Positions 1,870-51,226 of a stretch of DNA of 64,000 nt are shown here, one piece after another. The translations under genes were made by a program, and so were the position numbers. Positions within the stretch are counted from its first letter, which is position 1. Each line of letters begins with the position of its first letter. Below the pieces are notes generated by a model, which was not told the origin of the DNA, made no database searches, and saw only the letters and a list, made by a program, of their open reading frames with translations. This stretch comes from Branchiostoma floridae (Eukaryota; Chordata; Leptocardii; Amphioxiformes; Branchiostomatidae): positions 5,834,884-5,898,883 of the forward strand of contig NC_049979.1 of NCBI RefSeq assembly GCF_000003815.2, written 5' to 3'.

Positions 1870-4859
1870 CTGCAGGACAACGTAAACAATAAACAACAAC
1901 AATCAATAACAAGTTGAAGGCATAAACATATGAGGATATGTTAGTGTGTGATAGATTAAGTGAGCACATACCTACGCTCTCTGTATAGTGAGTGAGTGAT
2001 TTTGTGAGTGAATGAAATAATGAGTGAATGAAATAAGTGAATGAATGAAAGAGTGAGTGAATGACTGAGTATGAGTGTGAGTGATTGAATGAGTGAGTGA
2101 ATGACATAGAGTGAGTGAGAACATACGTACCTATGCTCTCTGTATAGAAGTCGAAGTGCAGTTTGTGAGTAAGTGCATGACAGATTGAGTACATACCCAT
2201 GCTTTGTATAGTGAGTACGCTCTGTATAGTGAGTACGCACGTACCTATGCTCTCTGTATAGAATTCGAAGTGCAGTTTGTGAGTGAATGATAGAGTGTGA
2301 GTGAATGAATGAGAGAGTGAGTACGTACCTATGCTCTCTGTATAGAAGTCGAAGTGCAGTTCTGCCGCCAGCTTCTTGCTGGACTTCAGCTTTCCTGACA
2401 GGTTCACGATTTTCACTTCTCCTGCAGGAACACAAATCACATGTCAGCAAAACCCCATCACAGCCTTTCAAAGTTTTAATCACTCACAACCCCTACCAGA
2501 GCCTTCTGGTACACAAATCATTTCTACAAAACTGCCATCACAGCCTGCTGGTAAACAAAACATTTCCCCAGGTTTACAATACATAAATGTATATCCTCCC
2601 CAAAACCCCATCACAGCCTTCTAGTTCACAATACTTTAAACCACCTAAAAACCTCTACAGCCTCCTCCTGCCTGGTACACAAAACATAATTATGGCTACC
2701 AAAACCCCTTGAGAGCCTACTTTTACATACAATGTAATATTTTCAAAAGCCTAATTTTGTGACACCTCTAGTTTGAGATACACATTATTAAGTAACTTAT
2801 AGAAATAACTTTTTCTCATCTCCAAAATAAGGAAAATAAAAATTCATTTACAACTTCTGCTTCAGGACACAATCACATCAACCACAACCACAATGATGGT
2901 CATCCAGGTCATAAGATCTGCCTTCAATTGTCTTCAGCTTGACTTTGTCTTACAATGCCCCTTTTTGGACATCTAACATTGTCTTTATTCATAGTTAGGG
3001 TATAACAATAAAAGACCAGTTTCTTCCAGATCACTTCAGTGTTACTGACGAAAGACACTGGATACAATCTGAAACGTCTAACCGTTTCCAAAATCATATC
3101 CAGTTGCTTGAATAACTGCTTTATAGCAAACCACAATGAAGCATACATGTATATATATACATGTAACCTCCATGGTCAGAGCAATGACCCAACACTCCTG
3201 CAGCTCCTGTCTCCGCCACCCACGGACCCATTATGTGTGATTAAATAATGCAGCGGGTGGCACAGGACATGAAACATGCATGAGGGTCGCCTGGGTCGGC
3301 CTGGTACCGTCACGACTTCCAAAGACTGGGACTGCACACGCTGTACTCCGGCCAAACCAAGGCAGTTCCTGGTTAGCATACAGGGCTCGAAATACCACCT
3401 GCATAAGCAGGTTAGTGCAGGTAAAATTGAAACTGTGCAGGTAATTCTGGTGTCTACCTGCACTGGTCCGTGTACTGCGTTTTATACATAAATGTCCTAT
3501 GACGTAGGTGTATATGGATTGTTGTTAGCTGCATTGACTGCAAATCTAGCAATGGTTCCTGAACAATTTTAGTATAATCCATACTTCCTAAATTCAGAGT
3601 GGTGCAGGTGAAATTTGTCTGGAGCAGGTAATTTTCAATGTTACCTGCACCAGTGCAGGTATGCACAAAAGAGTATTTCATACAATGGGGTGGTACCGTC
3701 ACGACTTTCCAAGACTGGGACTGCACACGTTGTGCTCTGGCCTAGCCAAGGCAGGTCTCTGGTTATCAGGCATTTACATTTTAAACAATGGGATGGAAGC
3801 TAAACTTGAATCTGACTATTTAATATGTTACAATTTTGAAACTTTATATCCGTACACAAAATAAAGCGCTTACTAACAAGCTTTCGATCAGTCCTCTGAT
3901 CCATTTCAAGTTGAAATGACCTAAGAATCTGACTAGATAAGAAAGTTCTTTGTACACTACCAAAGACTCAACATCAGGCCAACATTTTGGTGAACCTGCA
4001 GTACTGCCCACTGAAGCTAGGTGTCTCTGCTGCAGTGTGAAAACTGGGGTCCCAAACGTTTATTCACTCCCTAAAAATGTAGATGGTCTTTCATTTCTGT
4101 TTCTTTGCTGAGCGTGCAATTTAGCAATCTACTTTAAAATCCGAGAACCAGAGGATTTAACTTGATGTGGCCTCTGGGCCAGACAATATGCCTGCTGGCA
4201 TGTGGGATCACACAGGAGACCCTCAGTTGGTAGCTCTGTGCCATAAAACATACATGAGTTTCCTCTCCGCGCTGCCCTAACCCTGTACTTAAGCAGGGCC
4301 AGGCCCTTCTGATGACACGCACCATCACGGCTGGGTTGGGAACTATAAATCTGACACACAGTGATGCGTGGGTGGCATCAACACATAATGTGCATATTTA
4401 CAGATGAAGCTAATGTCTTCTCGAACATCATAAGTACCGTCCTTTATACACACACACAAAGCTCACACACACACACACACACATGCTCACACACACACAT
4501 TCATATACGCTCGCTCGCTTGCACATGCACGCACATACACACACACACACGGTCACACACACACACACAAACATGCTCACACACACACATTCACGCTCGC
4601 TCGCTCACACATGCACGCACATACACACACACACACACACGCTCACACACACACACGCTCACACACACATTCACACATGCTCGTTTGCTCACACGCACAC
4701 GCACACACACACACGCGCTCACACACACACACATTGACACACGCTCACTCGCTCGCTCGCTCACACACGCACAAATCACCATGTACAGAAGAGAGAGCTG
4801 ACTTACTGTTCGAAGGCCACCAGAACCGTGTCCTTCACACACACATGCTCACACACGCT

Positions 4860-4896
<37 letters not shown>

Positions 4897-7800
4897 ATTA
4901 CCATGTACAGAAGACAGGGCTGACTTACTGTCAAAGGCCATCAGAGCCATGTCCCTGACACACACAAACATCCAAACACATCACCATGTAGAGAATAGAG
5001 AGCTGACTTACTGTCGAAGGCCACCAGAACTGTGTCCTTCTCCAGTTGTGTGACGTTCACCACGTCCAGCTGGTTCTCACCTGGGGAGGGAACACAGGGA
5101 AACACCCGAGTTACAAACATCTTCATCATCACCAAATGTCTTACAGTGAGAAACACCTGAAGTACAAACGTCTTCATCACCATCAAACGTCTTACAGCTA
5201 CCAGAAACACTTTGTCTGTGCCCTCCCTGTGAAGCCAGCCAGTCTCCGTGAACAGCTAACCAGTCCTGGCTGGATAACAAATCTCTACACAACCAAATGC
5301 ATAGCCCTGAGTCACCAAAATAGGTAAAACACTTAGTTGTATATCAAGAACTAATCTTTGTTGCCCAACTTGCCAGTCTGACAAGTGACTGAATTGCCAT
5401 TGGAAGGGAAACTGATTCCCTATCAACATAAAAGTTGGGGATGCTTACTACAGGATCAACTTTCCTCAGGCATTTTGTCAAGGAACATTTTTCATGCTTC
5501 TCACATCACAGCTAAAACCTACTGTGACAAAAAAAACTCTCCAAACAGACAACTGCCATGCAAACAGAAAAGAACTGTTCTCCCATGGGGCTTCCAGTTT
5601 TCTTCTTCTGCATGCTGAGAGTTTGGGTGTGGCCTGGGTGCCATCCTACCCAGTACAGGGGCTCCCATACTCTACTTCTAATTAGCGGAGGGGGTATGGG
5701 GGCTGTACTACTACATAGGGTGGCACCCAGGTTAGTCTGGACAGGGCACTATACTTATCCGTGATTACTGTCTCCTCACCGTCAAACAGTGCTGCATGCG
5801 TGGATGGAGGAAGAGAGCGTCAGAATAAGAACTGGTCAAGCCTTCATCTTCTTTACAAATAGAGTTTACATCATGTGGTATTGGGCAGTAGGTTTATGGC
5901 ATAATCATGGAATGTGTACTTTTTGGTGATTGTAATTGGTGAAAAGGTTACCTAATAGTAGCCGTGCTGGAAGTAATCTCACGTACAGCCACACATGCAG
6001 CACATAATCAATACTAGACAAAAATGGTAAAGAATGAAGAAACATGAAATGGTCTGTCCAAACCTTCAGTTTCAATGAAAATATGCACCAGGAGTGTAAA
6101 GTTAAGGACACAATCCGCCGTAAGTGCTTTTTATCTGTATATTTTATGGGAGGTCACATCTGTCACGTTTCTCTGAAAACCTGCGGAAGGAATGGCAAGA
6201 GCAGGGAGGGACTACGTCTCAACGCACATCAGCCCTATGGCACACAAAGTTTTGCCTGCACGTTAAGCTTCTACGGCGTGTCTGCGTACCATCGGATTCC
6301 GTACGAGTTCGTACAGAGGCGGTACCTACCACTTACAGATCCCAAAAGATTGCCCACATTTGGCACCTTGATAGCACGTACGGTGGGTTGTGCCCTTAGC
6401 TTTAAGGAGGTTGTTTCCCCGAGAAGCTGGCAGAGTTCCTGCCTCTTACCTGATCCTTGCTCTGTGAACCAGCTTGAGCTCAAGTTCAGGTTCACCGTGT
6501 CAAAATGTAACAGGTTCTGATTGGTTCTGCAGAGAAACAACAATAACATTAGTTATAACAATAACATTAACATGGACAAACAACTACAGCAACAGGTTCT
6601 GCAGACAAGCAACATAAACAAGTAAAAACAAGAGATGAACATGTCGTAGGTTTATTGTGTATTGGTTTGGCTGATTTCTAGATTTCTAGCGAGGTTAACG
6701 CCCATGAAGTCGGTTCTTTCAGGTTCAGAGAAGCTAATTAACACTAAACTGGTGGTACGTGAGGGGCAGGGAGGAATACTTCACACCTATTGTCCGTCGA
6801 TTACTGGCTGTTAAATAACGGTAATACATTACAAAGGACATCTTTGTATGGCTTCCTTTAGTTTGCAGCATGTATTTTTGTGAGCTGGTCCCTTCAAATG
6901 CTGGTTATATAGAATAGTAGGACGGACTGAAGGGGGGGAGGGGGGATACTCACCCCTTCACTCTGCCAAGTTCAGCACCAAGGTCAAAGCCAGGAAAACA
7001 TGTAAACATCACTGAACATGAGACACACACGACATCGACATGCAGGAGGGGGGTGGGGGTGGGCGGCAAATCTCATGGCTCGAAATACCTGCAAATTTTA
7101 CCTGCATCACTCAGAACTTAGGTAGTATTGATTGTACTAAAATCTGTTCAGAAACTGTTGCCATTATCTGTATTAAACTTCATAGGTGATAAACACTCAT
7201 GCAAAAATCCACAATACACCTACATCACCTACACCTACACAAAACCCAGTACATGGACCAGTGCAGGTTAGGTGCAGGTAGACACCAGAAATACCTGCAC
7301 AACTCCAATTTTAACTGCACTAACCTGCATATGCAGGTGGTATTTCGAGCCCTAAACAGCCCTTGACATGCAAACGTGGGACTATGGTATGCCAACATGC
7401 GTGCAGCGAAATATTCAATAGCAAATGTACCACATGCAACACCGACATGCACTGGTGAAAGGACACGTCTGTACCTGTCTTCCCACAGCCTAACCCAATA
7501 ACCAATACAGACTTGGCCACTTAATTGTGCTGAGGTTTAAAAGCAAGCCACGACATGCGTGCAGCAACATCTGTGATCCCAGAAATGTCATGTACAGCTG
7601 GAGAGGATGTAGCCTTCATGACAGGATGTGAGTTAGGGCTGGGTACCGGAACAGAAAATTCAGGTCCAGTTCAGGGCCAGAGAATCAGGTCCAGGTTTGG
7701 ACCTGAACCTGGAACTGATTCAGTATCTGAGAACTTGTGAATGGACGGTACTCAAAACAATGGTCCATTTCACAACAAAGAAATCTGTTTTGTAAAGTAT

Positions 7801-10800
7801 TAGACTCCCTCTACTGGCATCCTACCAGGCTAACTGCCTCTGTACTTTTGACTGTAAAACTTTGTAGTATGGACTCTACTCTCCTTTGCTCTTGTTATTT
7901 TCTTTGACAGGTAAGGCCCAAATCGTGTGAATGCCAGATCATATAATCTGTTCATTTTCCTATTTGTCCAACATCCGGTCCACTGAATCTGTTTTTTCTG
8001 GACTGGTTCAATAAGAAAAAATTGTATTGTACCGGTACACCTCACCGGTATCTACCCCTAACTTGAGTACATGCTATAGCCAGTGCTGTAGTGGCAACTA
8101 TATACACACGTCACATGTCTGTCACACAATCAAGAAGTCCTCCATCAGGACTTCTTGAGCCTTACCATAACAAGTACCCTTTGCAAGGAGATCTTGCCCA
8201 GCAATAATTCAAATTAAACCAGGGCTGTCCCTGGGACCTTTTCATCCATCTATCCCGGTGCAGAAACTTTCTTCTTCAGACTGATAAAAATGTCACCCCA
8301 CCCGTCCAAAAACTCTGGACGTCACAACATGATTATATTCAAGAAAGTGTATTTTTGTGAGCTTAAAATGATAGATCTAACAATAAAAAAAAAAAGTGCT
8401 TCAATGCAATGATTGGGCTGGAAAACAATTAAAACCTGGAGACAGCCCTGATACTTTATATATCAATCACATTCACTCACTCAAGCTGCCACTTTAACTG
8501 ACTCACCCTTTACTGACTCCTATGCAGACCAGCGGGTATTCTGCGATGGGCGTGACCAGCATCTCGAACACCCTCAGCGGTTGTGGAATCGAGAACTCAC
8601 AGTGCTGTGGAACATAAGGGGGGAGCTGTGCTGTGGCATGAGGTGATCTGTTTCTCACTCCAGAGTACAGATTACTACAGAATACAGGTTACCATGGTAA
8701 CTGTTGCTAGGGAACTCACAGTGCTGTGGAACATAAGGGGGGAGCTGTGCTGTGGCATGAGGTGATCTGTTTCTCACTCCAGAGTACAGCTTAGTACAGA
8801 ATACAGGTTACCATGGTAACTGTTGCTAGGGATCTCACAGTGCTGTGGAGCATAAGGGGGGAGCTGTGCTGTGGCATGAGGTGATCTGTTTCTCACTCCA
8901 GAGTACAGCTTACTACAGAGTACAGGTTACCATGGTAACTGTTCTCTTGGGGAAGTTTGAAAGTACAGAGCACAGGCTGCTAAAGATTTATGGTTACCAT
9001 GGCAACTATCCAGTCTCTAGGGAAAGTTTCAAACTACAGAGCACAAGCTACTACATATGTATGGTTGCTATGGCAACTGTTTGGACTCCAGGGAGTTGCA
9101 AAGTACAGAGTACAGCTTACTATAGAGTTATGGTTACCATGGCAACTGTCTAATCTTCTAGGGATAGTTTAACTTTCAAGAAGAAGTCACTATGGCAACT
9201 GTGCTACCTCTAGGATCTGAATTGGTTGCATTAAAGTAAGGGAAAACACTGTGGAACAAGAGAACTGTTAACATGCAAGAAACTTTGCACAAATCACAGT
9301 CACTGTGTCTTGCTTAAGTAGAGTAAATAATTATATCATTGCAACTGTTGGTATCAGCAAACTCCTAATTTGGACCAGTAGCTTTTCCTGCAGTTTCTAC
9401 AAGAATCTGCAGATTTCTCATAAACTTCAGGTATGCTTTGAGCACCAGGTCCTCCTTCCACCATAAACCCTGCCCATGTATTTCCCACCTTAGAACCAGT
9501 GTACAGTAAATCAAATCTTCAACTCAACATGTTGATCCATATAAGGTTATCATTTGTATCCACTTGTCTGTCTTTATGTATAGTTGCAGAAAACCTGTGT
9601 ACCATGTGCTGGTGTCTGTAATAAACCCAAACATGTGCTGCTGTCTGTAATAAACCCAAACATGTGCTGCTGTCTGTAATAAACCCAAACATGTGCTGGT
9701 GTCTGTAATAAACCTTACCATGTGCTGGTGTCTGTGTCTTACCTTAACTAACATGAACTTCTGCATGGGCTCGTACCACTGGTACAGGACCACCCCGTTT
9801 GGTACCGCTGTGCACAGGTACTTGTGACCGTTATACGGATTCCGAACTGCAACAGGAAGTGATGAAACAGGAAGTGATGAAACAGGAAGTGATGAAACAG
9901 GAAGTGATGTCATCTGATTGTACCCATCCCTCCCCATCTACAAGCTGCTGTTACCATGGAGATGCTCCAGACTACATCAGGCTTAACATCTTACATTCTA
10001 AACTACATACAGGACTGGTCATTAACAAGGCAGGTAAACTCACATACAGGTCATTAACAGGCAGGTGAACGTACAGAAAAGGAGAACCACTCACCAACAC
10101 AACACCTGAGGCAGCCTTTGGTATCTGGCAACTTGGTAGAAATTGCATATTTTCTGCAAAGACAAAAAAGGACCTTGTAGTTGACCAAACATCACTGATT
10201 GTCATATATGATATCATAGATTTGGCAAATTGGGTATGATTCTGTCAGTCAGCTTTTGAGTGTGTGTGAGTGTGTTTACCTGGGTCATACGTGGATGCTT
10301 ACCTGGGTCATACGTGGATGCTTACCTGGGTCATACATGGGTGCTTACCTGGGTACGATTCTGTCCGCCAGCTTGTGTGTAGGGATGTTGAAGCCGAGGG
10401 TGTGGGTTGTGCGTGTGGGTGTTTACCTGGGCCATGCGTGGGTGCTTACCTGGGTACAATATTGTCGGACAGCTTGTGTATGGGGATGTTAAAGCAGATG
10501 GTTGTGCATGTGGGTGTTTACCTGGGTCATACGTGGGTGCTTACCTGGGTACAATTCTGTCGGGCAGCTTGTGTGTGGGGATGTTGAAGACAAGGGTGTG
10601 GGTTGTGCATGGGTGTTTACCTGGGTCGTGCGTGTGTGCTTACCTGGGTACGATTCTGTCGGGCAGCTTGTGTGTGGGGATGTTGAAGCCGAGGATGTGG
10701 GTTGTGCATGGGTATTTAACTGGGTCAAACGTGGGTGCTTTCCTGGGTACGATTCTGTCGGAGGCTTGTGTGTGGGGATGTTGAAGACAAGGGTGTGGGT

Positions 10801-13800
10801 TGTGCATGGGTGTTTACCTGGGCCATGCGTGGGTGCTTACCTGGGTACAATTCTGTCGGGCAGCTTGTGTGTGGGGATGTTGAAGCCGAGGGTGTGGGTT
10901 CGGTCGTGCAGTCCCACCAGGTTGTGTGAGTAGACGTGCGGAGTTTTTCCTGCAGGGAAAAATACAACAACACTTGACATCACCCCTCCTCACATCCACA
11001 GCAATCCACAAACATGCACAAGAACAGAGAATTGCTCAACAGGACACAACAACATCTCAAGGGCTATGATTTAATTACAAAGCCAATCAATTGTTAAGTA
11101 AAAAACCAAGGAAAATCAACTTTCTGGCTTCCTGTGATGGTCGGTGGCATTCTAGATTCAATCTGCATTGCAAATTCTCTATGAAGTTAAAACCTGGTCT
11201 GTTACCACTCTCTGTGTTTGTTTCACCTACATAAAGAGTCATATAGAAATAGCGTTCATCCACTTAGTCTACATGTGACAAACAGTGATACACTGGCTAA
11301 AACAATTACAGGGTATGACATGAACATTATTGCGAACGTTAAGATAATGTTACTAAGGAAGGCAGCAGCCATGTGAAAAGGCAGAAGAATGGTGGAATAC
11401 TGGGATAACTTTGCACTTGATATCTCTGCCATACTCCAGAACATTACACAGTACACATGCATACCTGGTATGATTGGACACTGTATTCCAATGACATATA
11501 CTGTGATGAGTTCAGGCCTTTTCTCTATAACTGAGCACTTTTCAATACACCAGCAATTGGATAATGGCAAAAAGGATACAGCAAGAGAAGAATACTGCCT
11601 TATCTACAGAAAACACAAAATTCCGCAACTAAAAAGCTGACAAACTGTCTTTTCACAGTCATTATATATTGTCGTAGATATGTGTAAATGCAGTACTCTA
11701 GGCCTTGTTTTGGGTCCTGCACTAGCAACTGCAGTAACTAGGGGGCGTAAGTAAGCAGGCAGGAGGGGCCTCCTGTGGAGTGGGGCTTGCCATACCTTCT
11801 GTCCGTCCGAGAAGGGGCCAGACAGAGGAGACACAAACAAACAGAAAGAAGGGAAAGTAGACGTGAGTCACGGTACAAACAATGTGGGGAAAAATACAGA
11901 ACTGCTCAGAAAGGAGGAAGGACAGCTACATGTGGGCTCAGGTTTGGTTTGGTGATTTTGTTTCACTGTGAAAGTACAATGGCAGGTCTGGGAATCTTCA
12001 TGAGTAACAAACTAAATGTCATAAATGATGCAATTTCTGACAAAGAAGGGTCCAAAAAGTTTTAAAACAATCTAAACTACAGTCTTCCAGTCAGCTACAA
12101 AGTTGTTATTTTCACAAGATAGCCACCACGAAGTTTTCAACTTTAAACCTCAGGGGAACAACAATCTTCCAACTTTCATCACCCATGATTTTTGTATCCC
12201 AAACAAGACGTTCCTTTGAATGTAGTTGGGAGGTGAAGGATGAAGGAAAGTCCTGCCTCCTTGGGGCAGTTTGCATGAGACATCTACAAGTGGACAAGAC
12301 TGTTGATGATTGTGCAAGTCCTGATTCATGTACAGTGCTGAAACTCTCACCTGATACTGACAGCAGGATGTTGTTTATTACGTACATCCAGGTGCATCTT
12401 CTGGGGAACAGCTGTGAACAAACAAATAAACAAACATGAGTAAATCTCCTGGAAAATGCCAACACTACCGGGTACCCTCCCATCCCAACCATCTCCCTTC
12501 TGAGGTAGCCTTTTGGAACCTTGTGGTTTGTATTGTTTACAATGTATTTTTGTGGGAGCCAAGAAAAAGATAATGACAAAGTCTTCAGACACAGACATTC
12601 CTACCTGAAAACTATGTGTTTAAGCAGTTTGACTTTTGGCACTCACTCTGTACTGTTCAAAGGTTTGGGCAACATAGCAATTATGTTTTGGGTCAAAATG
12701 CTCGTGGATTATACACGATGTGCCGGCATGCAGCCGCGTGATGTCTCGGGGATAAAATATTTGTAACAAATTATGCCAGCCTCAGCACGCTGCAAAAAGT
12801 CGGACGATTGTCTCCATTTTTCTTTTTCAAGTCATTCTTATAATATCATTCTTATAAATATCATTACAACTATATTATTTTGAATACAAAGAATAACATA
12901 AGCATACGTAATTTTAAGTATATATAACATTGTTATCTTGTAAATAATAAACGAAAGACAAATGTATAAATTATCAATGTTCAGGGCGATACCTCGCGGC
13001 GTAATCGCTGGCTTTCTGGCTTGTTACGTGATTTTTCTTGAGACAACCCCTAAATAAAGCGCGCACCCCGACTTTGGCTTTGACCTGAAGCACCAACTTC
13101 AAAGTTGAAATGTCAAAAAAGTGCACGGTTTATTAGAAGAAATACGGTATTGTCCTTTGTAAACAGTCTATCCAAGATTTAAAGAACAAAGAAACATGAA
13201 CTCACATGATCCATGGTGGCCTCGTGCAGCTGTGTGAGGTTCAGGGTGTAGATCCCCTCGTTACACCCCACGATGATGTGCTGGTCTGGGGGGCAGAGAG
13301 GAACATGGTTAGCCTGGGTACCACCCGGAAAGTAGTTTGGCGTGCATAACATACTATATACAGTCGCTTCTAGCTCTGACATTCATTATAAGCTGTATAT
13401 ATCGCTTCCCTGCTGTTCCGTCTAGGATCCTGGACCACGTTAACGTCTGGAGTTGTCCAAATTTTGGACGCAGGTGCTGATTGGTCCCTACACATGAGCG
13501 AATTATGGAATGGGTTCAAGCGATCATTCGAACAGGAGTTCCAAGACCTCTCCCTGCTTGCGGGAGGGCTGTTGTCATTGAACAAGTGCTCTAGAAACCC
13601 ATTCCTTGATTCGCTCGTTAACTGGCGTCACCACCAGACAGTTTGCATGTGCAGGTCTCCAGACAGATAGCAGAGGCGAACATACGAGCGAACTACTATC
13701 CGGATGGTATCCAGGCGAAAATGGTGTCATCAGCAAACTGATCCTAACACAGGATTTTATAACAAGTTTTACATTTCTGTAAGTAGGGAAGTCAGGTGAT

Positions 13801-16800
13801 CTCTAACAATTGCCTTGAGCAAACCTCAAGACTTCTGTGTAGTAATGTTCATTGATGAGTAAAATACTGTAAATGCAGAAACTTTCACGGTGGTTTAATG
13901 TTCAAGGTTTTTGTGGTGGCCGCTTCACAGCGAACTTAAAGCCACCGCAAACATTTTTCCACGGCAGTAAGAGACTACAGTGCATGGTGCTACCACGAAC
14001 TTAAAACCATCGCAAAAAGTTCCTTTTCCCGCTACCACAAAATTAAATCCCCGTGAACTTAAATGTATTTACAGTACCATAAGCGTCAGAGTATACATGT
14101 AAGTACATCTAGTAACTAGAAATGTGATGCTTCCGATATGCTGCAGTTAAAATTGAAGAGTTCATGCATGTGTTGGTACCTCTGGTCTGTGGGTGGACCC
14201 AGCTGACGGCACAGTTCACCTTGAGAGGACAGCCGTTGAACACTTTGGAAAAACACGCTCCCATCTACAACAAACAAATTCAACACATGAATCCCAAAAT
14301 ATAACACGCTCCCAACAACACACTGGTCGGTCGGCATCTGTATGTCTTGGAAGACAATGGTAGGCAGACAGGGTGGGTTAGGTGACCAGTCTGCCTGGCC
14401 TAGCCTGCACATGACTTTCTAAGGTGAAGGAGGGGTGTGCACTTCCTTCTCCACCCTCTCGTCTACAGGCGCCAGGGCTCTAGCCAGTGTCCGGTTTTCC
14501 GTCAATTGACGGAAATTTGCTGTGTGTGACAGAAAAATTTTCAAACCAGTCCGTCAACCTTGACGGACAAAAATCCTTGGTGGAAGCTACAGGCAGCTTG
14601 GGGATGCCGTCCACGGCCGTAAAAGCCACACACTGTTTTCTTTGCTATTGTTATTGTTGATGAAGCGTGTCTGTGCCCTTTCGCACACGATTATCTCCTT
14701 AAAAACCTGTTTTTCAAAGTCTCAGTTCAGTCTCTCTAAATTCTGGAATAGTGTTTTCGCGACAATGGGAATTGGCTGACGGAAAAAAATTTCGAGCTGG
14801 CTAGAGCCCTGACTGGCGCACTAAGTCCTACAGGGACAGAACTGTATGCCACATGTAAGACAGTCCCAGCAGATGCAGGTTTGTTCTTTGGAGTTTTTGT
14901 CTCCTAAGAGGACTTCCGACCAAGGAATATCCTGTTATGAATATCCTCCTTTACTCATCATTGTCTTGATCAAATTATTGACATCTCAGGCATAGTACAA
15001 AAAAGTCTTACTTAGAGAACTACCATTTACTGCTTCAAGTTTCAAGCTTAAACTAACTCCTGTGTTTCATGGCGGAAATATAATCACTCCAAAGTAACAA
15101 AGGAAACTCACGTGTACTTTAGGTGTAGGCGGGAGCCCATTGCACTGTGGTTCCTGCTGCAAAAAACAGGTGACAACAGGTAAACACACCTGGCAGGTGA
15201 GGCCAGGTAAACTCACCTGGCAGGTGAGACCAGGTAAACTCACCTGGCAGGTGAGAGGCAGGTGAAAATGGTTACACCTGGTAGTTACAAGGCACAGCTA
15301 TGGACATGACCAGAGTTAAACATTGCTCACAACATGCTGCCATTAGAAACATGACTATGTACAATGTAGCTACAAACACAAACATGGTGCGTTAAAAAAT
15401 TACACAGCCTTTACAGCCATTCATCAGGAATATCTAAACAGCAAATCTTTGTCCCACACATGCCCATGTATAAAAAAGTATGAAAAAGCAAGAAAAGCAT
15501 CATTACCAAGATTGCTAGGGTTTCTTGGTGACATATCCTGGACCAAGTGGACCGCTACACCAGACAGAAAAGACCGAATCACAGACAGGAAAAAATAAAA
15601 CAATGGAGAATCTATAGAAAATCAGCTCAGACGTGAAGTGCCAGATTGGTGCAAAAAAATACGAAAGCGGAAGGACGCCATGTGATGTGTAAGGTCAGAT
15701 GTGGGAAGGTCAAGTGTGAAAGGTGTAAGGTCAGATGTAAAAGGTCTAAGGTCAGCTGTGAAAGGTCTCTAAGGTCAGGTGTGAGAGATGTAAGGTCAGG
15801 TGTAAGAGATGTACAGTCAGATGTGAAAGGTGAAAGGTCAATTGTGAAAAGTAAGGTCATGTGTAAGTAAAATAATGCTGAAAGCGATACAGAATGGGTA
15901 GATCTTCTCACTGTGGCAAATGTCTAGTCTCAACTTTGTAACCTTTTCTGTTTGATTGTTGTTCTGTATAAGAACATTTTCAAGATAGCATCAAACAAGT
16001 CATTGTTTTTACCTCTTTGTAACACCATGAACAATTGCTAAATGTAATAATGAGACATAAACATTTGCCACATGTACGGAGTGTTGGTGAGGCATGCGGA
16101 AGGGCAGTATGGGACAAAACTTTGCTGAGCATCCATTGTCTCTGGTTACATTATATCAAACTTGTGTGTGGATCGTTTAAGGTATTCCTGACATGTTAGA
16201 CTTAGAGGGAGAAACTCATGCTTCTCACTGCACAAACAAAACCCTGCTGTTACTGCACATAGGACACTCACAAGGCACAAGTCATTATGTAACATGCTGT
16301 GAATAGGAACGTTAGGTTAGAAGCAACTTAAAATCATCACGTCCGATACTACAGGGGTCCAAGCAACTATGTATGTGATGGAGGTAATGTACAATGTAAG
16401 AGTGGAGACCCAGATGTGTGCAGTAGGTCCAACACACTGTTTTTCCACCTCATACCTGATAGCAGTTGCAAAATCACATCTTACAGGGTTTACTACATGT
16501 TACTACATGTTACTAAGATTGCAGATGACTGTAACAACACTCTACATGTTTAAGAGTGTACACATAATTTACAACATGAAACAAACTTCTGAGTTTAGGT
16601 TCTGCCAAGTTAACTAGCTTAATTCTTTCAAGACTGAAATGTTGCATGATGACCGTACAGCAAAAATGGCTATAAATTTGGAAAGAAACTAGAATCACCA
16701 ATAGATTTGGAAGTCGTCTATCTTTCCGAGCAAAGGTTCAACAATACCACAGGCAGCATAACCAACCTTAGGGCTTAGGTCACATTTCCAAACGGGGGCC

Positions 16801-41949: not shown

Positions 41950-41967
41950 CCATATATGTATATGTAC

Positions 41968-42064
<97 letters not shown>

Positions 42065-42066
42065 GA
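41950..42066. repeat. (ATGTAT)n microsatellite
   Basis: About 19 hexamer units of TATATG, giving false Tyr/Thr and Tyr/Ile frames on the other strand. Confidence 0.97.
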
Positions 42067-42575: not shown

Positions 42576-42742
42576 TCCAAGCAGATCTTACGGTGGCATA
42601 AGATAGCATCAAAAGCTGGGGCCGAAGGGTTTAAGCCGGCCACCGATTGGCTGATAATAGCCTTTGAGCGATGATGTTCTGCCGCAGATCTTCGGTGCAT
42701 GGCTGGCTAAACTATCTTATGCCACCGTAAGATCTGCTTGGA
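42576..42742. mobile_element. Foldback MITE TCCAAGCAGATCTTACGGTG
   Basis: Inverted 31-bp ends (TCCAAGCAGATCTTACGGTG continuing GCATAAGATAG) bound 167 bp, 28 bp from the laccase stop codon and so probably within its 3' UTR. A related fragment is near 49021. Confidence 0.88.
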
Positions 42743-42769
42743 TATTAAACGACGGGCACTATCATCCTC

Positions 42770-42972
42770 TTATGCATCGCCGACATTTGACTTCAAAGGA
42801 ACAGCATCCGCAGCAACGGTAACCGCCGGTGGAGATGCGGCCTTCTTCCTGTTGATGGCGCAGTAGATCGCCGCTGCCAGGGTGGCGGCCATGACGACAG
42901 CTCCCCCCACAGCGGATAGGGCAATGACCTGCAGGTCAGGTGCTGTACAGGTGGTCTGCACGTCTGGTGGGC
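42770..42972 (-). CDS. Laccase exon 9: C-terminal transmembrane anchor and stop
   Basis: Sixty-seven codons plus TAA at 42772-42770. The hydrophobic run VIALSAVGGAVVMAATLAAA then IYCAINRKK predicts a single membrane helix with a short cytoplasmic tail. Confidence 0.9.
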
Positions 42973-45900
42973 CTGTGGGCACAGATCATTGGTCTGAATG
43001 ATGTCTAAAGCTAAGGGCACAACCCACCGCACGTGCAATTTATCTGTACGTTTTTTGGGGGGGACGCCATGTATTTCTCAAAACGTTCAGGCTGTACAGG
43101 GCAGGCGCGTCGCCCGTACTGACAAGTACGGGGGCGAATCCGCAGCCCGATGGCACACAAAGTTTTGCCTGCACGTAAAGTTCTACGGCGTGTCTGCGTG
43201 CTGCAAAGTCCGTCGATCGGAGGCGGTACTTATGACTTACGGATCCCAAAAGATTGCCCACCTTCTGTCTGACAGTCACGTAGACAGCACTTATTTACAC
43301 GTACGGTGGGTTGTGCCCTTAGCTTAATCTATTCAATGAAAACCGTAGAAGCATACATCTTACATTGGCAAAACCTCACAGCCGGCGCATAGCGATGTTT
43401 AGAAAATGTACGTAGGCATCTTGCTTTTTTGCGCGTACAGTTCTCTTGCATCTCTGCAGAGGATGTCATTGATATATTTCTGCAGATTTGTAAAAGGCAG
43501 CGTCAAAGTGGAAATATTCTGAATAAGGCGATCTGCATGATATAGACATCTACTGCACTGTATTCTCACATTTACATCATAATTTGATACTTTGAGCGGT
43601 TAAAAACAGCCCAGAGACAAGCAACTTGCACGAGGATATTCCTTATTATGGTACCCCCCCCCCCCAAAAAAAATAAGGACTTGATCTGGAATCCTTGTGC
43701 AACTCATTACTGTGCTGTTTTTAACGGCTCAATTTATGAAATAATGATGTCAATGTGCTAAGATAGTGCAGTAGATGTCAATATTATACAGACTGTCTTA
43801 TTCAGAATATTTCCACTTTTAACAATGTGATATTGCTTGGGTTGCCTGTGATGGCCTCAAAGGAATGGACCCAATAAATGTGAATGAAACGTCAAGATAA
43901 CTCGTCTGACTCACTACTGCGTCAACATCTGCATGGAGCTTACCTGGAGGAACCGCAGGACCGCCTCCATCCAGAGCGCTCTGGTACTGCTCGGAGCTCC
44001 ACGTGAAGTCGCCGCACGTCGGGAAGCCTGCGGGCGGGGGAGGGTGTCTGTCCGCCGCCTCCCGCAGCACCAGCGCCATCCCCTCGTTCATGTGCTGGTC
44101 GTTGTGGCAGTGCAGCATCCAGTGGCCGGGGTTGTCTGATCTGACAGGTGCATACACATCAAACGGGATGAAAGTTTACCTGCGATGTTGGTAGGATCTA
44201 GCCTGGGTACAATCTGGATAGTAGTTCGCTCCTATGTTTGCTTCTGCAGAGAAGCGACTGCAGTGTATATAGTGTATAATGAACGTCAGAGCTGGAAGCG
44301 ACTGTACATAGTATATAATGAACGCCGGAGCGAACTACTTTCCGGATGGTACCCAGGCTAGGTAGGATCCATTTAGATTGAATCCGAAGTATAGGGTCTA
44401 CCTGAAGTAGTATTAAAATGACTGAAATGTCTGGTCGTTGTGGCAGTGCAGCAACCAGTGGCCAGGGTTGTCTGATCTGACAGGTGCATACACATCAAAT
44501 GGAGTGAAAGTTTGAATATAGTGACGTCGTAGAAGAGGTGGATTGCAAACTTTTTAAACCAATATCTTTCATCCCTTAACCCTTAACGCACTTCTCTCCA
44601 GCATGGATAGTATTGTTGCAATTGCCCCTCACTCTTACGTATGAAAAGCGAAGTACTTTTATTACCTGAACCTGACCACAGTATACCCATTAGCTGGTAC
44701 AAGGACGGTGTCCTTTAGTGGCGGGTTGATCAGGTTTAGCAGCGGCGGTCCATCCCGCCAGGTGGCGTCCGTGCACAGCCACAGGTCGTTCTTACATTTC
44801 ACATCAGTGTTAGGCTGCATGTAGCGACCTGTTGAATGCAGTGAATTGTTGTAAAACGTGAATTCTTCATGTTTAAACTTTTACTACTAGTAGTTTTTGT
44901 CCCCTCTGAACGTAAAGCTGTAAATCTTATGAACGTTTTTAAGGCTGTAGGTAAAATGTGCGTTATGTACCTGTGTCTTGTTGTAACTGATGAAACCCAT
45001 GGCGACGACCTGGAAGGCGTGTGCGTGGATGTGCACGGATATAGGTAACCCCGTGGATAAAGGTAAATTAGCCTGTACCTGTAGCTGGGGAAACCCATGG
45101 CAACGACCTGGAAGGCGTGTCCGTGAATGTGGACGGATAAAGGTAACCCCGCGGATAAAGGTAAGCTAGCGTGTACCTGTGGTCTTGTTGTAGCTGGGGT
45201 AACCCATAGCGACGACCTGGAAGGCGTGTCCGTGGATGTGGACGGATATAGGTAACCTCGCGGATAAAGATAAACTAGCATGTACCTGTGGTCTTGTTGT
45301 AGCTGGGGTAACCCATAGCGACGACCTGGAAGGCGTGTCCGTGGATGTGGACGGATATAGGTAACCTCGCGGATAAAGATAAACTAGCATGTACCTGTGG
45401 TCTTGTTGTAGCTGGGGTAACCCATAGCGACGACCTGGAAGGCGTGTCCGTGGATGTGCACGGAGTGGTGCGTCTGGCTGGTGGGAGCGAAGGTGTTGTA
45501 CATCACCAGCTGGATCGTCTGGTTGTAAGGAATGTCTGAATACAAGGGGAGAACATGACATTAAAAGGTCGATAGAGACTTTCTACTTATATTTTCATCA
45601 GGTTGGTCGATCTGTACTCTCCAAGCAGAGGTTAGGCTCCGGCTGTTTTTTAACGTTATTTTCAGTCGTCTTAAAACCGGACACAGCAAGATAAAATACA
45701 AAATAGAAACCCCGATAAAAACGAATAAAAATAACATTAAAAAACAGCCGGAGCCTACCCTCTGCTTGGAGAGTAGTCGATCTGGGTTATATAGGAGTTT
45801 TCTTTTACACAACCAGTAATGCTGATGTTGCGATGCCTATCAGACATCTTTCTCAGAGCTTCTGACTGTCCAGAGTTTTCCCTCTCGCCGCTACATGCAT

Positions 45901-48900
45901 GAACCGGGAGACTAGTGGGGATACAAGCTTATCCACATTGGGAATGTGTTCTCGCAGCAAAAGCGCCACCTACATCGACCACATTTAGCGGCGAGAAGCA
46001 GAACTCCAGTTAGAAGCTCTGAGGAAGATGTCTGACAGACATCGAAACGTCAGCAGTGAGATAAACTGGTTAGAACTTTGTTAAGAACTTATGATTACCA
46101 TGCATTGTTGTCCTGTTATTTTGTAACTATGCATATGCTATGTATTTCGGAGTGAATAGTGGTGAAGTGTGATGTACCAGGGTCTCCCGAAAATCAGGGA
46201 TCTCGCCCTGAGTGAGCACACCTGGCTAAATAAATAAATGAAATGGTTGTGCAAAACAAAACTCCAAAGTGCAATATCCAGACCTATCATGTGTGTACAC
46301 CGACAACCGCTCCGAAGACACAGTTCCTCGTCGCACGGCACCGTCGCCGCTGTGGTGTTCTGGTGAAGCGGCGCTGTGGGACCGATGAACCGCCGGCCGT
46401 TGACCGAAGACCCGATGGCGAAGTTGAAGTTCAAGAATATCTCGATGACGTCTGCGGCTTCCGTGGTGCGGGAATGTCCAGCGTATCTGTCAGTGGCCTT
46501 GGATTGTCCAGCCCCCTCTGACGGCAACGCCAGCGCTTCCACATCATTCATGTTGATGCAAGACGTGTGCAGGTGTTCGGGATAGCCAGCAAACGGGCAG
46601 TTGAACACATGACACGGATTATCGTTGGTGCAGCCCCGTTTAGTTGTGGTAGGATCCCGGTCTGCTGTCACGCCTTGGTATCGCAGGATCGCCCGCACCT
46701 CTTCTGTGACGTCGTCCGGAACCACAACGACCTCATCGTACGGGTAGCATTTGGTGCAGTGGCCGACGCGCAGGGTCTCGGCCCGTACCCAGTACAGGTC
46801 CGGCCGGGCCGTTCCGTTTATCCGGACATCGTAGCTCTCCCCTGGGTAGATGATGACGGACTGGACTCTCCGCGGTGTCATGTCGAACCCATCGCTGGCT
46901 GTCACCGTCAGCTCATGCTGGTCCACGGAGAACCGGAACGGGTAGTCCGGACCGACATGGATGATCCGGAAGTTGCCGTGCCCTCCGGAGGGGACCATGA
47001 ACGTGCTGAGCGGCGCTCTGTTGTCTCCGAACCGACCGCGCCCGTTGATAAGGGCTGAGTTGAACACTCGACTGGAGACTTTGACGCCATCGTGAGAGAA
47101 CGGGCGCTCGTAGGCACCTGAAAAAAGCACAATATATATATCTTAAACAATGTTCACCGTATCATACCTTGAAGATGCCATAAGAATTCAGGTCATTTAC
47201 CAGTATGAAATTCTAGCATTTTCTCATTCATTATGCAAATGACGTAATTGCATAATTTTCATTATCTTTCTCGCTTGCATGTGTCAAGCTTACAGGTTCG
47301 CAAAATCCTAGTGAAGCGGGTTTGTTAAATTTCCTCATTTATTATGCAGATTAGGTTTTTAATTACATAATTATGATGTAATTATATCAAACATCATCTT
47401 GGCCTCACTTCTTTCAAAGTCTGAAACTGAACCGGCTCCGCTTACAAAAATCCGCTAGGTGGCTACACTCTACCACTCATAAAGCACGACAGTAGCATGT
47501 CCAGATCTCAAACCCCGGAAGTTCCTCTGCAGTACCATAGCAAGCCGCTAGGGGCCAAAACTCTAATCGTTTTGAGATCTCTTAAACTTGATGAAGACCT
47601 ACCCACATACCACATACTGAATATCAAGGCACGCCTTCGAGTTTTATGTTGTCCATTTACACACACACACACACACACACACTACCGAAATTACTAGTAT
47701 AACTTGATGAAGACCTACCCACATACTGAATATCAAGACAATCCATCCACGTCTTCGAGAGTTATGTTGTCCATTTACACACACACACACAAACACACAC
47801 ACACACTATCGAAATATTAGTATAACTTTCTAGCGAAGGTAACTAGCGAAGGCAATCACCCAGCATATACTCTCCATCGCCGGCGTGTTCCAAGCCGAAC
47901 ATGTTTGAAATCCAATATGGCGTAGCCTCGATGTGGTACCAGTCGTGGAGGATCACGGGAATCGATGGCACGATGGGACTCCTGGTTAAAACAAGGACCG
48001 AATCGAACATAAGTATACATGGAATTGTCAGTAACACCACTTAAGGTATGCAAACCCGATGACGACGGGGACAAAAGCTTTCCGTCCCTTGTTGTGCCAA
48101 TTGCAACAAGATTGGTAATAAAAACATTATTGCAATGGCAACGATTGTCATTTACAGGAGGTGAACATAAGACAAACGAAACCTGAAAAATTAATTCACA
48201 GGATGTTCCTGATAATGAAATTCTTTTGTTTTTACTGTCAACAGGATATTCCTGTCATGTAGATATTTTTTCTGCGGGTTCCGAGACAACATCTAGCTTG
48301 TCTTGGTAATTGAAGAGGGGTATGAAGGGTATAGAGCAGTCTATATACAAGTACAAACTTGATGTAGTTATGACCCCTTCCTAAAAATAAGGACATTAAA
48401 TGTTATACTTGTGACGGAACAGTATCTAACAACATTGTAACAGACACACACTGTTCTAGAAAACAGGTACACATAAAGAATTCCCTGAGGATTGTAACCA
48501 CAGAGATAGCAATCTTCTTTGGTTACAAACCGTTAGCTAGTCTGGACTAACTAGCTCTTGAGTGATGTCTACCTCTTTCTCTTGTTACCAACTTTCTGCA
48601 GTGGTCTTTCTGTAATGTGACTGCCCCTACTTTTTTGACTGGCACAACACTATGTTTGTCTTTCTGAGTTAGAAGAAAATGTGTATTTTTCTATAAAACT
48701 CAACGGAATGTGATGAATTGTGCAACTTCTACCTATACACAACTTATCAAGTGCTCCATCTGGACAACACCTGTGGTTGACTGTCCAGTTATCTAGGACA
48801 AATGCCTGGGGGAGCTTGCATGACCCGAGTTCCTGCCATTGAAATTCCTCCGGACTAACTTCTCACATTGCAAACATGCCTGTGGTCTGGCATTCCTGTG

Positions 48901-51226
48901 GAAAAATGCCTGTGTAATTCCTAGAATTTTTGCAGACTGAACACAATGATATACCATTTGACATGCCCCTGAGGCGTCGCCAAAAAAGCGCGTAAACTGC
49001 CAGACAGGGCACCGTTTAATGTCCTACGGTGGCATATGATCATAAGCTGGCAAAAGTGTGCAGCCGGAAAGAATTCCAGAAAATCACATGTAACGTTACC
49101 AGTAATCATGATAGAGTCGCTAGTAACTTTCAAGCTTGTAAGTTAAGGCCATATGCATGTTGATTTGATTTTATGGATAACATCCACTGGGAACCCCAAA
49201 CCTGATGCAAGTGTGCGAATTAAAAAAAAAAAGGTGCTTTCATTATGACGTCGACGTGGTCTGGAAGGTTCAACAACGGACTGAACACACAGTATGGTAT
49301 ACCGAACAGTAGATTCTTAATTTTTCTTCTTTCACATCGTCTTCTTTGACATGACATTACTCTACGTTTTCCTAAATTGTCCTTGCGATATACGGCATAT
49401 ATCTGCCCATTTTCCAGCTGCTTTGTACCATTACTATATGTTTGAAAACTTTTTCCGTCTTACCTGGCCCTGTGCACGATGAACGCGCCGAACAGTCCGT
49501 CCTCTCGCTGCGTGCGGAGGTGCGAGTGGTAAAAATGCGTCCCGGCAGGCTCTGCGTTGAAACGATAGACGAAGCTCTCGCGGGGCATGATGGGACATTG
49601 TGTGACGTAGGGCACGCCATCCATGTAGGGCGTGCTGCGCATGTGCAGACCGTGCCAGTGGATGCCTGTGGCCTCGGTTAGCAGTTTATTCGTTACTTTA
49701 ACGACGACCTGGGTAGATATTAATTAACATAACAGCGCAAGTCAGTAAGTGTAGTGTAGTCGAATTTATAACGTAGTAAAGCTTTAATGTCATTCTCTGA
49801 TCCACATTACTGCATCTAGCCTCAAAGGAGCATGGATATGCAATAAACTTATCATTGTCCATGGCTATGATAATGACCGTCTTAAAGCTAGAAGCCAATC
49901 CACGATCCTAACGTTTGAAAATAGTTTGAACTAAATAAAATACCAACAATAAATAAAATACCAACAATCTCCCTAACCTGTGCCCCCTCCACGACTTCAA
50001 TGGTAGGTCCCGGGAACATGTCGTTGACCGTGATGACGTTCCTCTGAACCCCGTCAGTGGTAATGACCTCCTCCATGGGCACGAGAGTTCCGTTCACATT
50101 CTCCTTCCCAGGGTGGGCGGGGTTTCCCAACGGACTGAAGAGCTCAAGGCGTCCGTCATCACGGAGTTTCACCTGTAACGTATAACATGACGTCATTGAG
50201 ATTTACCTGTAACGGTACGTCACGGAGTTTCACCTGTGACATTACGTCATGGAGTTAACCAGTAAAATGACGTCATTGATATTTACCTGTAACTTGTCGT
50301 CATTGACATTCACCTGTAACATGTCGTCATTGAGATTTACCCGTAACATGACGTCATAGAGATTTACCTGTAACATGCCGTTATTGAGATGTCGATTCAC
50401 CTTTAACGTTCCGTCACTGAGATTTACCTGTCCATGCTGATGAAAGATGTGGGGTTGTGGTGTGATTACATATTTCAAAAGAATCCTTCTTTTTTCCATG
50501 TCGATCTCCCTCTTTTTTCTCCCCACTGTCTTCCCCCTCTATTTCTCTCTCTACAGCCTCCCCCTGAATAATCTCTATCCAGTCCCTCCCTCCTCTCTCT
50601 TATCGCTATCTCAAAGTCATTCTGTCTCTTGCTCCTTTCTCCTGTCTCCCTCCTTTCTCCATCCTCTACTCTGTCTCCTCTCGTTTTCTCTCTCCCTTTC
50701 CCCTAACTTCATGCTTACCTCTCTCTCTGTTCTCTCTCTCCACTTTCTCCCCACCCTCTCCTCTCTCTCTGCACTCTCTCTCACTTTGCACTCTAATCTC
50801 TCTGTTCTCTCTCTCTCCACTCTCCCTCCACTCTCCTCTCTCTCTCCACTCTTTTGCTCCTCTCTCTTCCCTCTCTCTCTTTCTCCCTCTCCTCTTTTAT
50901 AAAGATGACGACAAAGCGATTGGGTTGCAATGCTTAGATGAGGAGCTAAATGTTCTGGAGACGTTTGTATGGTGTCGGCATTTTCCGCTAAATTACTTCA
51001 CCATAACTCACTTGACAGCAAAGGTTTGAAACAAAAATTCACTTACAGAGTTGGTATCCCTGCGCCCGTTGAGGTTCCGTGTGTGAGTCATGGTCTTGGT
51101 CCGCCTGATGACGAGGGAAAAGTGGCAGACGCTGTCGGTGCAGAGCTGGGAGAGAACGCTCTGGGCCGCGACAAGCGCCGACATGATGAGAATGATGATG
51201 GTTCTCGGGGCCAGGTGCCTCGTCAT
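42770..51226 (-). CDS. Laccase-type multicopper oxidase with C-terminal membrane anchor
   Basis: Laccases oxidise phenols, amines or metal ions by one electron and reduce O2 to water using four copper ions. Nine exons join in frame to 752 codons with stop (751 residues). In order: a signal peptide (hydrophobic IIILIMSALVAA), a Cys segment, a first cupredoxin domain with HWHGLH and HSH (exon 3), a second domain mostly in one 810-nt exon, and a third domain with HSVHIHGH (exon 6) and HCHNDQHMNEGM (exon 8). These are all four copper motifs, including the T1 Cys and a Met at the axial position. The last exon adds a hydrophobic helix (about 20 residues from VIALSAVGGAVVMAATLAAA) and a basic NRKK stop-transfer: a type I membrane anchor. 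The physiological substrate cannot be told. Two introns carry arrays copied from exon edges. Confidence 0.93.
43006..43326. mobile_element. MITE family A, copy 2
   Basis: Ends TAAAGCTAAGGGCACAACCC and GGGTTGTGCCCTTAGCTTA are a near-perfect inverted repeat. About 320 bp in the last laccase intron. Confidence 0.88.
43490..43825. mobile_element. Large foldback MITE family D, copy 1
   Basis: Arms of about 120 bp: AAAGTGGAAATATTCTGAAT on the left and ATTCAGAATATTTCCACTTT on the right, with TCTACTGCACT / AGTGCAGTAGA in between. A single-arm relative is at 53095-53225. Confidence 0.88.
43944..44140 (-). CDS. Laccase exon 8: copper motif L4
   Basis: Codes SDNPGHWMLHCHNDQHMNEG and M: His-Cys-His ligands for T1 and T3 copper with a Met at the axial position. 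Ends in phase 1 at GTAAGCTCC. A copy of its 5' edge lies at 44432-44510. Confidence 0.95.
44199..44360. mobile_element. MITE family B, copy 3 (short)
   Basis: Ends TAGCCTGGGTACAATCTGGA and TCCGGATGGTACCCAGGCTA are inverted, including AGTAGTTCGCTCC / GGAGCGAACTACT. 162 bp in a laccase intron. Confidence 0.87.
44432..44510. repeat. Copy of the laccase exon 8 5' edge with acceptor
   Basis: Near-identical to 44099-44175: the GTGGCAGTGCAGC exon part, the CTGACAGGTGCATACACATC intron side and flanking sequence. One diverged copy about 332 bp upstream in transcription sense. Confidence 0.9.
44666..44828 (-). CDS. Laccase exon 7
   Basis: Codes YMQPNTDVKCKNDLWLCTDA and on to PANGYTVVRFR, matching the Asn-Pro-Pro...D..VP..GY.V.RF pattern of laccase domain 3. 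Acceptor CAACAG, donor GTAATAAAA, phase 2. Confidence 0.93.
44971..45394. repeat. Donor-derived array carrying the copper-motif exon edge
   Basis: Exon-edge copies start at 44971, 45079, 45177 and 45286, with the true edge at 45395 (spacing 98-109 bp). Each includes about 65 nt coding HIHGHAFQVVAMG-like sequence, a donor and about 40 nt of intron. Confidence 0.93.
45395..45535 (-). CDS. Laccase exon 6: copper motif L3
   Basis: Codes DIPYNQTIQLVMYNTFAPTS and HHSVHIHGHAFQVVAMGYPS: the H-x2-H-x-H motif binding T1 and trinuclear copper. Donor GTACATGCT, phase 1. Its 3' part with donor is repeated four more times at 44971-45394. Confidence 0.94.
45605..45784. mobile_element. Foldback MITE GTCGATCTGTACTCTCCAAG
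   Basis: Inverted arms of about 58 bp (GTCGATCTGTACTCTCCAAG... versus ...GCTTGGAGAGTAGTCGATCT) around a short AT-rich loop. Confidence 0.9.
45833..46055. mobile_element. Foldback repeat with AGACATCTTTCTCAGAGCTT
   Basis: CAGACATCTTTCTCAGAGCT at the left pairs with AAGCTCTGAGGAAGATGTCT at the right. A related, shorter foldback lies at 55180-55225. Confidence 0.7.
46308..47117 (-). CDS. Laccase exon 5: domain 2
   Basis: An 810-nt exon with NGRGRFGDNRAPLSTFMVPS, VTASDGFDMTPRRVQSVIIY and PGESYDVRINGTARPDLYWV, all typical of cupredoxin domain 2, plus several Cys residues. The donor (CG|GTTGTCGG) is weak, but it is the one that gives the phase needed by exon 6. Confidence 0.9.
47586..47810. repeat. 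Tandem duplication of about 115 bp with (CA)n
   Basis: AACTTGATGAAGACCTACCC...GTTGTCCATTTACACACAC occurs twice in tandem, each ending in (CA)n, in a laccase intron. Confidence 0.88.
47860..47981 (-). CDS. Laccase exon 4
   Basis: Codes RSPIVPSIPVILHDWYHIEA and onward to GDGEYML, the link between domains 1 and 2 (LxDWYH motif of metazoan laccases). Donor GTGATTGCC, phase 1. Confidence 0.9.
48000..49463. other. Laccase intron 3
   Basis: No exon or clear element apart from a fragment near 49021 related to the MITE at 42576. AT-rich. Confidence 0.4.
49464..49708 (-). CDS. Laccase exon 3: copper motifs L1 and L2
   Basis: Contains IHWHGLHMRSTPYMDGVPYV and AGTHFYHSHLRTQREDGLFG, the first two copper-ligand motifs. 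Acceptor CTACCCAG, donor GTAAGACGG, phase 2. Confidence 0.95.
49978..50172 (-). CDS. Laccase exon 2: N-terminal cupredoxin strands
   Basis: Sixty-five codons with TTDGVQRNVITVNDMFPGPT, the conserved laccase start of domain 1 (NGxxPGPxI). Donor GTTAGGGAG, phase 0. The acceptor edge is amplified upstream at 50173-50440. Confidence 0.92.
50173..50440. repeat. Acceptor-derived array, about 30 bp unit
   Basis: About nine units of GTCATTGAGATTTACCTGTA, each containing the complement of the acceptor and exon start (TTACAG|GTGAAA) of laccase exon 2. Confidence 0.92.
50500..50900. repeat. Polypyrimidine (CTCT)n-rich tract
   Basis: Long CT-rich low-complexity stretch in laccase intron 1; open frames on both strands (Ser/Leu, Arg/Glu) are artefacts. 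Confidence 0.95.
51047..51226 (-). CDS. Laccase exon 1: signal peptide
   Basis: Sixty codons from the ATG at 51226-51224. MTRHLAPRTIIILIMSALVA is a good secretion signal, followed by a Cys-containing segment (LCTDSVCHFSLVIRR). Donor GTAAGTGAA, phase 0. Confidence 0.88.

Follow-up and report, generated by a model that had tools for sequence, protein, structure and literature searches.

Tandem repeats whose unit includes an exon-intron border, known as mirages, have already been described in amphioxus, in Adh (Adh3), in the globin genes BflGb6 and BflGb9 and in troponin C (PMC3087553, PMC3902484); PMC3902484, which cites the troponin C case, adds PGBD5, and the phenomenon received its name in 2010, when it was also considered potentially more general (PMC3087553). 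Like the arrays described here, the published mirages consist of minisatellite-like units (10-160 bp as reported in PMC3087553 and PMC3902484) that include the border, come in donor and acceptor types and keep AG or GT in many copies. The mirages of these reports are cases in single genes, whereas 17 more, found in 25 loci, are added here to those of the window, together with a placement null and a count of splice-site strengths. The repeat type is known; what is new is the border test on 25 loci (547 borders). No genome-wide count of mirages was found in the literature searched, mainly open-access papers, although one may exist.

Two further systems bear some resemblance to these arrays. In the models of intron gain by tandem duplication of AGGT segments (the Rogers model and the globin model of PMC3087553), exon-edge sequence is likewise duplicated together with splice signals, but here an existing intron is enlarged beside one of its borders and no new intron is shown. 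In the new introns of Daphnia, as reported in PMC4202315, exon-edge bases are repeated at the intron and are explained by repair of staggered breaks; those repeats are 4-12 bp long and mark new introns, whereas the units described here are mostly 28-152 bp and are organized in arrays.

Junction copies in two neighbouring genes

The window, a stretch of 64,000 nucleotides of the Branchiostoma floridae genome, is part of a 35-Mb contig in a genome of 513 Mb and contains two neighbouring genes on the reverse strand, to which the arrays and exon edges given below also belong. One gene, at 1799..39750, is MAP4K3-like, with kinase and CNH domains, and was predicted with 36 exons between 235 and 39750, some of them false; the other, at 42770..50172, encodes a laccase-like multicopper oxidase with three Cu-oxidase domains, and its model was probably fused by the gene finder to the gene upstream. 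Both assignments combine Pfam and PDB matches with a purpose-written gene finder that employs codon usage and splice-site weights and was trained on Pfam-anchored exons in 20 other loci of the same genome. On these training loci, the gene finder overlapped 141 of the 143 Pfam-matched exons and reproduced 81 of the 86 paired introns. One window exon, 30130-30194, was retained by hand.

An earlier note on this DNA reported that at least ten exon borders in the two genes are accompanied by junction copies, and each of the 11 junctions that it named is indeed accompanied by copies of its own edge: clear tandem arrays at nine, a weaker array at one and a displaced copy at one. The borders predicted by the gene finder coincide exactly with all 11 positions, and the exons across the 31908/30194 splice, with decoys omitted, give a continuous protein match to human MAP4K3. 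TRF called arrays that extend at least 8 bp to either side of nine of the borders (2329, 5012, 8604, 10841, 18022, 24099, 30194, 31908 and 45395) and none in three order-1 shuffles of the window. The spacing, which the note put at mostly 85-120 bp, was fairly described: the units measure 83-119 bp at seven junctions, and the other four differ, with 152 bp at 24099, 28 bp at 31908, 27 bp at 50172 and an offset of 337 bp at 44140.

In the MAP4K3-like gene, donors are covered by a 114-bp x 2.0 array at 2114..2337 (exon 2329-2421), with four intact decoy GTs that are all in frame and open; an 83-bp x 1.9 array at 4875..5028 (exon 5012-5080); a 99-bp x 5.9 array at 10315..10900 (exon 10841-10949), with five decoy donors of 9.4-10.8 bits against 9.4 for the real one; a 94-bp x 3.2 array at 17730..18034 (exon 18022-18070); a 152-bp x 2.2 array with inner 21-bp repeats at 23821..24154 (exon 24099-24215); and a 28-bp x 2.0 array at 31865..31920 (exon 31908-31998), which lies within a broader degenerate array at 31436-31950. 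Acceptors are covered by a 119-bp x 2.9 array (97% matches) at 8593..8943 (exon 8507-8604), with degenerate copies up to 9170, and by arrays of 95- and 113-bp units at 30158..30587 (exon 30130-30194). In the laccase-like gene, a 109-bp x 3.5 array (96% matches) at 45080..45464 covers the donor of exon 45395-45535.

The two junctions that TRF missed are also in the laccase-like gene. A 27-bp x 7.7 array (75% matches) at 50183..50390 adjoins the acceptor of exon 49978-50172; the TRF call starts 11 bp into the intron, and direct alignment places the first 14 bp of the exon in an upstream copy (score 40, compared with at most 22 in 200 shuffles), so that the border is part of the tandem unit by alignment here and by TRF at the nine junctions above. 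At 44140, the copy is not tandem: the acceptor edge of exon 43915-44140 (44090..44177) recurs once, non-contiguously, at 44427..44513, as exon edge, acceptor and intron with 93% identity (alignment score 129, compared with at most 23 in 200 shuffles).

Repeats cover 13.8% of the window, compared with 0-23% of the first 20 loci fetched. Because the region is repeat-rich and was picked for that richness, statistics from the window alone are biased: nine of its 15 arrays with a unit of at least 40 bp span a border, with 1.48 expected, and one of the nine, a marginal 40-bp x 2.0 array at 24211..24288 that the note did not name, reaches only 5 bp into the acceptor side of exon 24099-24215. The predicted exon 18461-18579, on 26-bp repeats, is doubtful and is not claimed here, but is still included in the 2/14 short-unit arrays of the window and among the copies of the divergence count below. 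Elsewhere in the window, a long exon encoding an acidic low-complexity protein with runs of D and E is predicted on 3-78 bp repeats at 58264-59273, and TATATG is repeated 18.5 times (96% matches) at 41953-42064.

Placement of arrays relative to exon borders in 25 loci

The test sample consisted of 25 loci of 10 kb, ranked by the number of exons with Pfam hits (seven kinesin, seven chaperonin, five SNF2 and six myosin), with 547 usable borders. These 25 of 117 regions were the top 20 by exon-hit count and the next five listed. Some choices in this design could bias the outcome. Of the 653 family-match rows listed, 427 were entered: Pkinase 6/130, mostly long single-frame matches; myosin 76/148, with tandem copies thinned; SNF2 95/108, with repeated rows omitted; kinesin 137/140; chaperonin 84/86; and AMP-binding and E1-E2 29/41. 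PDB matches identify L016 as CCT zeta, L021, which holds seven arrays, as CHD4 and L031 as INO80-like; the other loci were assigned to family only. Arrays were collected with TRF (period of at least 15) and by self-BLAST (offset 40-600, contiguous). Under null 1, one unit was placed randomly in the gene, neither wholly within an exon nor swallowing one; under null 2, the entire array was placed, with exon overlap limited to one unit. Predicted exons were dropped when more than 66% of their length lay inside arrays, unless they were strong and had a Pfam hit, or when they were weak and without a Pfam hit. In two exons, L031 3461-3694 and L034 6391-6542, the gene finder had read through an array in frame, and these were trimmed manually. 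The training loci of the gene finder (L010-L029) are also part of the test set, and five arrays (unit of at least 40 bp) that lie beyond the gene territory were left unscored; with this number in 54 kb of flanking DNA, the background is not negligible.

Among arrays with a unit of at least 40 bp, 17 of 23 straddle an exon border, compared with 4.60 expected under null 1 (P = 6.6e-9) and 6.59 under null 2 (P = 2.2e-6). Thus, in the 25 loci, tandem duplications of this size fall on exon borders about 3.7 times as often as random one-unit placement predicts; a bootstrap over loci puts the ratio of the observed count to 4.60 at 2.6-7.1. At least one spanning array is present in nine of the 25 loci (SNF2, 4/5, namely, L021, L022, L031 and L034; kinesin, 2/7; chaperonin, 2/7; myosin, 1/6), and the spanned borders comprise 11 donors and six acceptors, in agreement with the suggestions of the earlier note that the process is general and that both border types are affected. 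The count is 13/19, with 3.74 expected, when only exons with Pfam hits are considered, and 15/23 when an overlap of either 10 or 20 bp is required. The last batch (L031-L035), which was outside the training set, gives 6/6 against 0.60 or 1.00, with two of the six dependent on the hand-trimmed exons. Because the rank of L017 was raised by its own copies, the results without it are also given (16/21); without L017, L021 and L034, the count is 6/10 against 1.47 (P = 8e-4) or 1.93 (P = 4e-3), and, besides these three, spanning arrays exceed expectation in six loci and fall below it in two (L014 and L019).

Several results weaken the bias. The training loci L010-L029 alone give 11/17 against 4.00 (P = 2e-4) or 5.60 (P = 5e-3); an earlier version of the analysis, with a 60% cut and without two long-intron arrays of L018, gave 11/15 for the same loci. 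Seven of the 17 spanning arrays belong to a single gene, L021, without which units of at least 70 bp give 4/7 against 1.36 (P = 0.03) or 1.97 (P = 0.10), and arrays of less than 90% identity give 2/5 against 0.88 (P = 0.21). In two of the 17, the overlap with the exon is just 5-6 bp. For units of 15-39 bp, 0 of 21 arrays span a border, but merely 0.60 (null 1) or 1.17 (null 2) are expected, too few to tell. No border bias was seen among displaced direct copies, of which 4/32 in the loci and 2/10 in the window touch a border (a rough hand estimate for the loci is 6). A first automatic pass, in which exons with Pfam hits were paired, yielded 86 introns and 172 borders, one of them spanned; it was dropped as the main test because genes with copied exons, and hence mirage borders, are lost from it.

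The count by bases gives a different picture. Arrays with a unit of at least 40 bp lie over 17 of 547 positions (3.1%) at the border; further into the intron, the counts are 19/487 at a distance of 200 bp and 16/408 (3.9%) at 400 bp. No excess of per-base repeat coverage at borders over deep intron was thus seen in the 25 loci. The enrichment appears only when each array is counted as one founding unit; we argue that event counts are the better test because added copies insert new DNA, although a preference for bases would show no excess. The median intron is 435 bp long (86 paired introns), and a border-anchored array of several hundred base pairs fills much of a short intron.

Possible origins of the arrays

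In our view, the arrays are best explained as mirages with a unit mostly of 40-150 bp across an exon border, whose placement is biased to borders, which are tolerated and which may be born from repair. The earlier note described the repeats as seeded at splice junctions, which is an interpretation rather than an observation: its picture of a general, border-biased process that affects both border types and creates strong decoys holds up, whereas the seed at the splice site itself does not, given that the exon share of the unit ranges from 0.05 to 1.0 (KS test against uniform, P = 0.11) and that coverage at the border does not exceed that deep in the intron. Slippage, recombination and repair are not separated as causes by the same data.

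The reading that the border bias results from amphioxus haplotypes aligning in exons but poorly in introns is possible, although we put it forward tentatively. A break near an exon edge would be repaired by copying from the homologue; synthesis would then pass the border into the unlike intron of the other haplotype and fail to anneal the second end; end joining would leave the exon edge duplicated in tandem together with its splice site and adjoining intron, and this duplication would subsequently be amplified by unequal exchange. For B. belcheri, the reported differences between the two haplotypes amount to 4.39% for SNPs, with small indels affecting 9.29% of the genome length (PMC4284660), and a heterozygosity of about 3% is reported for B. 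floridae parents (PMC12862219); with haplotypes so divergent, exons may be the stretches in which copying from the homologue can be begun as well as completed. Repair at such homology cliffs is favoured here because the border can lie anywhere in the unit, both border types are affected and arrays of at least 90% identity are equally biased, whereas a motif seed would give a fixed anchor and slippage alone would give no bias. As the repair model predicts, the exon parts of the units are more alike than the intron parts in 17 of 25 arrays when compared with the real copy, but less clearly so, in 11 of 18, when copies are compared with each other; constraint on the real exon explains this pattern, which does not separate repair from slippage. 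Slightly more doubtful is the wider proposition that exon edges act as homology cliffs and mirages are scars of failed copying repair, general to extremely heterozygous animals; if true, the intron part of a new copy would have the sequence of the other haplotype. Should the border bias hold genome-wide, it would point to a mutational process that respects exon ends, possibly without involvement of the splice machinery.

Among the alternatives, plain random tandem duplication in a repeat-rich genome with short introns, where hits at borders are harmless and no special bias operates, accords with the flat per-base coverage, the repeat content of the window and the unbiased displaced copies, and yet appears unlikely in the face of the per-array excess (17/23, and 10/12 among the most similar arrays), which extends to six loci besides L017, L021 and L034, with two below expectation. 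A marginally lower probability is assigned to a splice-site-specific seed, that is, a motif, pausing or R-loops that prime slippage or recombination, which competes with the mechanistic part of our explanation only: it would account for the border bias, for the preponderance of donors over acceptors and for the repetition of intact splice motifs, but not readily for splice sites located anywhere in the unit or for affected acceptors, which lack the donor motif. It is improbable that the bias is one of survival, whereby arrays containing exon sequence decay at half the rate, the real exon being frozen, and stay detectable longer. Exon parts diverge from the real copy by 0.052 on average and intron parts by 0.089, which is near the expected factor; nevertheless, arrays of at least 90% identity, which have hardly decayed, are at least as biased (10 of 12 span a border, with 2.07 or 2.96 expected), so slower decay of exon-anchored arrays is not the explanation.

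Two other scenarios carry still less weight. Nascent intron gain, under which the arrays are themselves introns derived from duplicated exon segments with a proto-splice site, has been suggested for amphioxus globins (PMC3087553), but it is very improbable here: no whole intron in the 25 loci was found with copies on both sides, all 17 spanning arrays being scored at a single border, and in many units a splice site already exists beside a long stretch of intron. An assembly artefact, with haplotypes collapsed or stitched together, would not be surprising in a very heterozygous genome, and PGBD5 copy number is reported to have differed between earlier drafts (PMC3902484), while the draft version of one globin mirage was 'aberrantly assembled' according to the authors of PMC3087553. 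We nevertheless consider it the least probable of all, given the approximately 30 copies of the L022 array, the graded divergence among copies, the confirmation of such arrays by re-sequencing according to the authors of PMC3902484 and the globin haplotypes with 6 and 3 units reported in PMC3087553.

Decoy splice sites

Arrays that span a border, in the window as well as in the 25 loci, contain 142 intact decoys (117 donors and 25 acceptors), whose splice scores differ from those of the real sites by a median of 0.00 bits; 79 are equal or stronger, and 100 score no more than 1 bit below the real site, which upholds the proposal of the note that the copies offer decoys. Use of the decoy would keep the frame without a stop in 24 of the 142. 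Splice dinucleotides, which are present in many copies of the published mirages, are kept in 143 of 152 copies from 28 arrays (one of these, 18502-18993, doubtful), but not in the array at 30194, where none of three decoy AGs is kept; because 135 would be expected from the divergence of the intron parts, the decoys are neither purged nor clearly protected.

The gene models place the real border in the copy that adjoins the exon body, and, if the proteins are normal, we infer that the choice of splice site must be positional, as in exon definition. Where protein continuity could be assessed, the site used appears to be the exon-proximal one. With the decoys omitted, L021 gives a single unbroken match to CHD4 (residues 2-490 of 490), and the L031 exon is aligned to INO80 over residues 2-78 of 78, reaching the hand-trimmed border; in L016, the CCT zeta query begins inside the mirage exon, which confirms the gene and not the border. 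Use of the exon-proximal site fits exon definition, under which the splice-site pair with the shortest distance across the exon is chosen, and does not fit a plain downstream scan for the first AG. Tolerance of the arrays could follow from the same rule, under which the intron-side copies would be ignored, including upstream acceptors, which would be the first reached by scanning from the branch point.

The arrays thus represent natural tests of exon definition, with up to 31 decoys, mostly of near-equal strength, beside one required site. The maximum of 31, all donors, is reached in L022. In the SNF2-family gene of L034, three mirages add copies beside the real edges: 20 of 48 bp at 5423-6433, 19 of 91 bp at 7802-9532 and nine of 81 bp at 3323-4131; its 18 decoy donors are mostly 48 bp apart and its nine decoy acceptors about 81 bp apart, so that the last of ten acceptors must win. 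In L031 (3131-3505), the end of the INO80-like exon, with the LLTGTPIQN motif, is followed by seven further in-frame copies with the frame open throughout, and eight donors including the real one follow each other at 45-48 bp steps with 10.8-11.9 bits (real, 11.4); these copies could, in principle, be a source of length variants. More generally, new splice variants and introns might arise from such arrays. They are also traps for gene finders, and ours was trapped in L016, L017, L021, L031 and L034, where decoys were made into exons or arrays were read through.

Several other duplications were observed in these gene families. In L034, an inverted repeat of about 540 bp (1-548 and 1527-2066; 97% identical) overlaps a predicted exon. 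L030 (G000:C2:33874200-33879199), an SNF2-type gene fetched for its repeated exon hits and excluded from the counts, shows a series of adjacent hits to approximately the same 33 model positions, and its arrays of 68- and 283-bp units overlap predicted exons. Near-equal chaperonin matches to the same model positions are found 5.6 Mb apart, at G000:C19:6925341 and C19:12481796; recent duplication, a pseudogene and a haplotype remnant are candidate readings of this pair.
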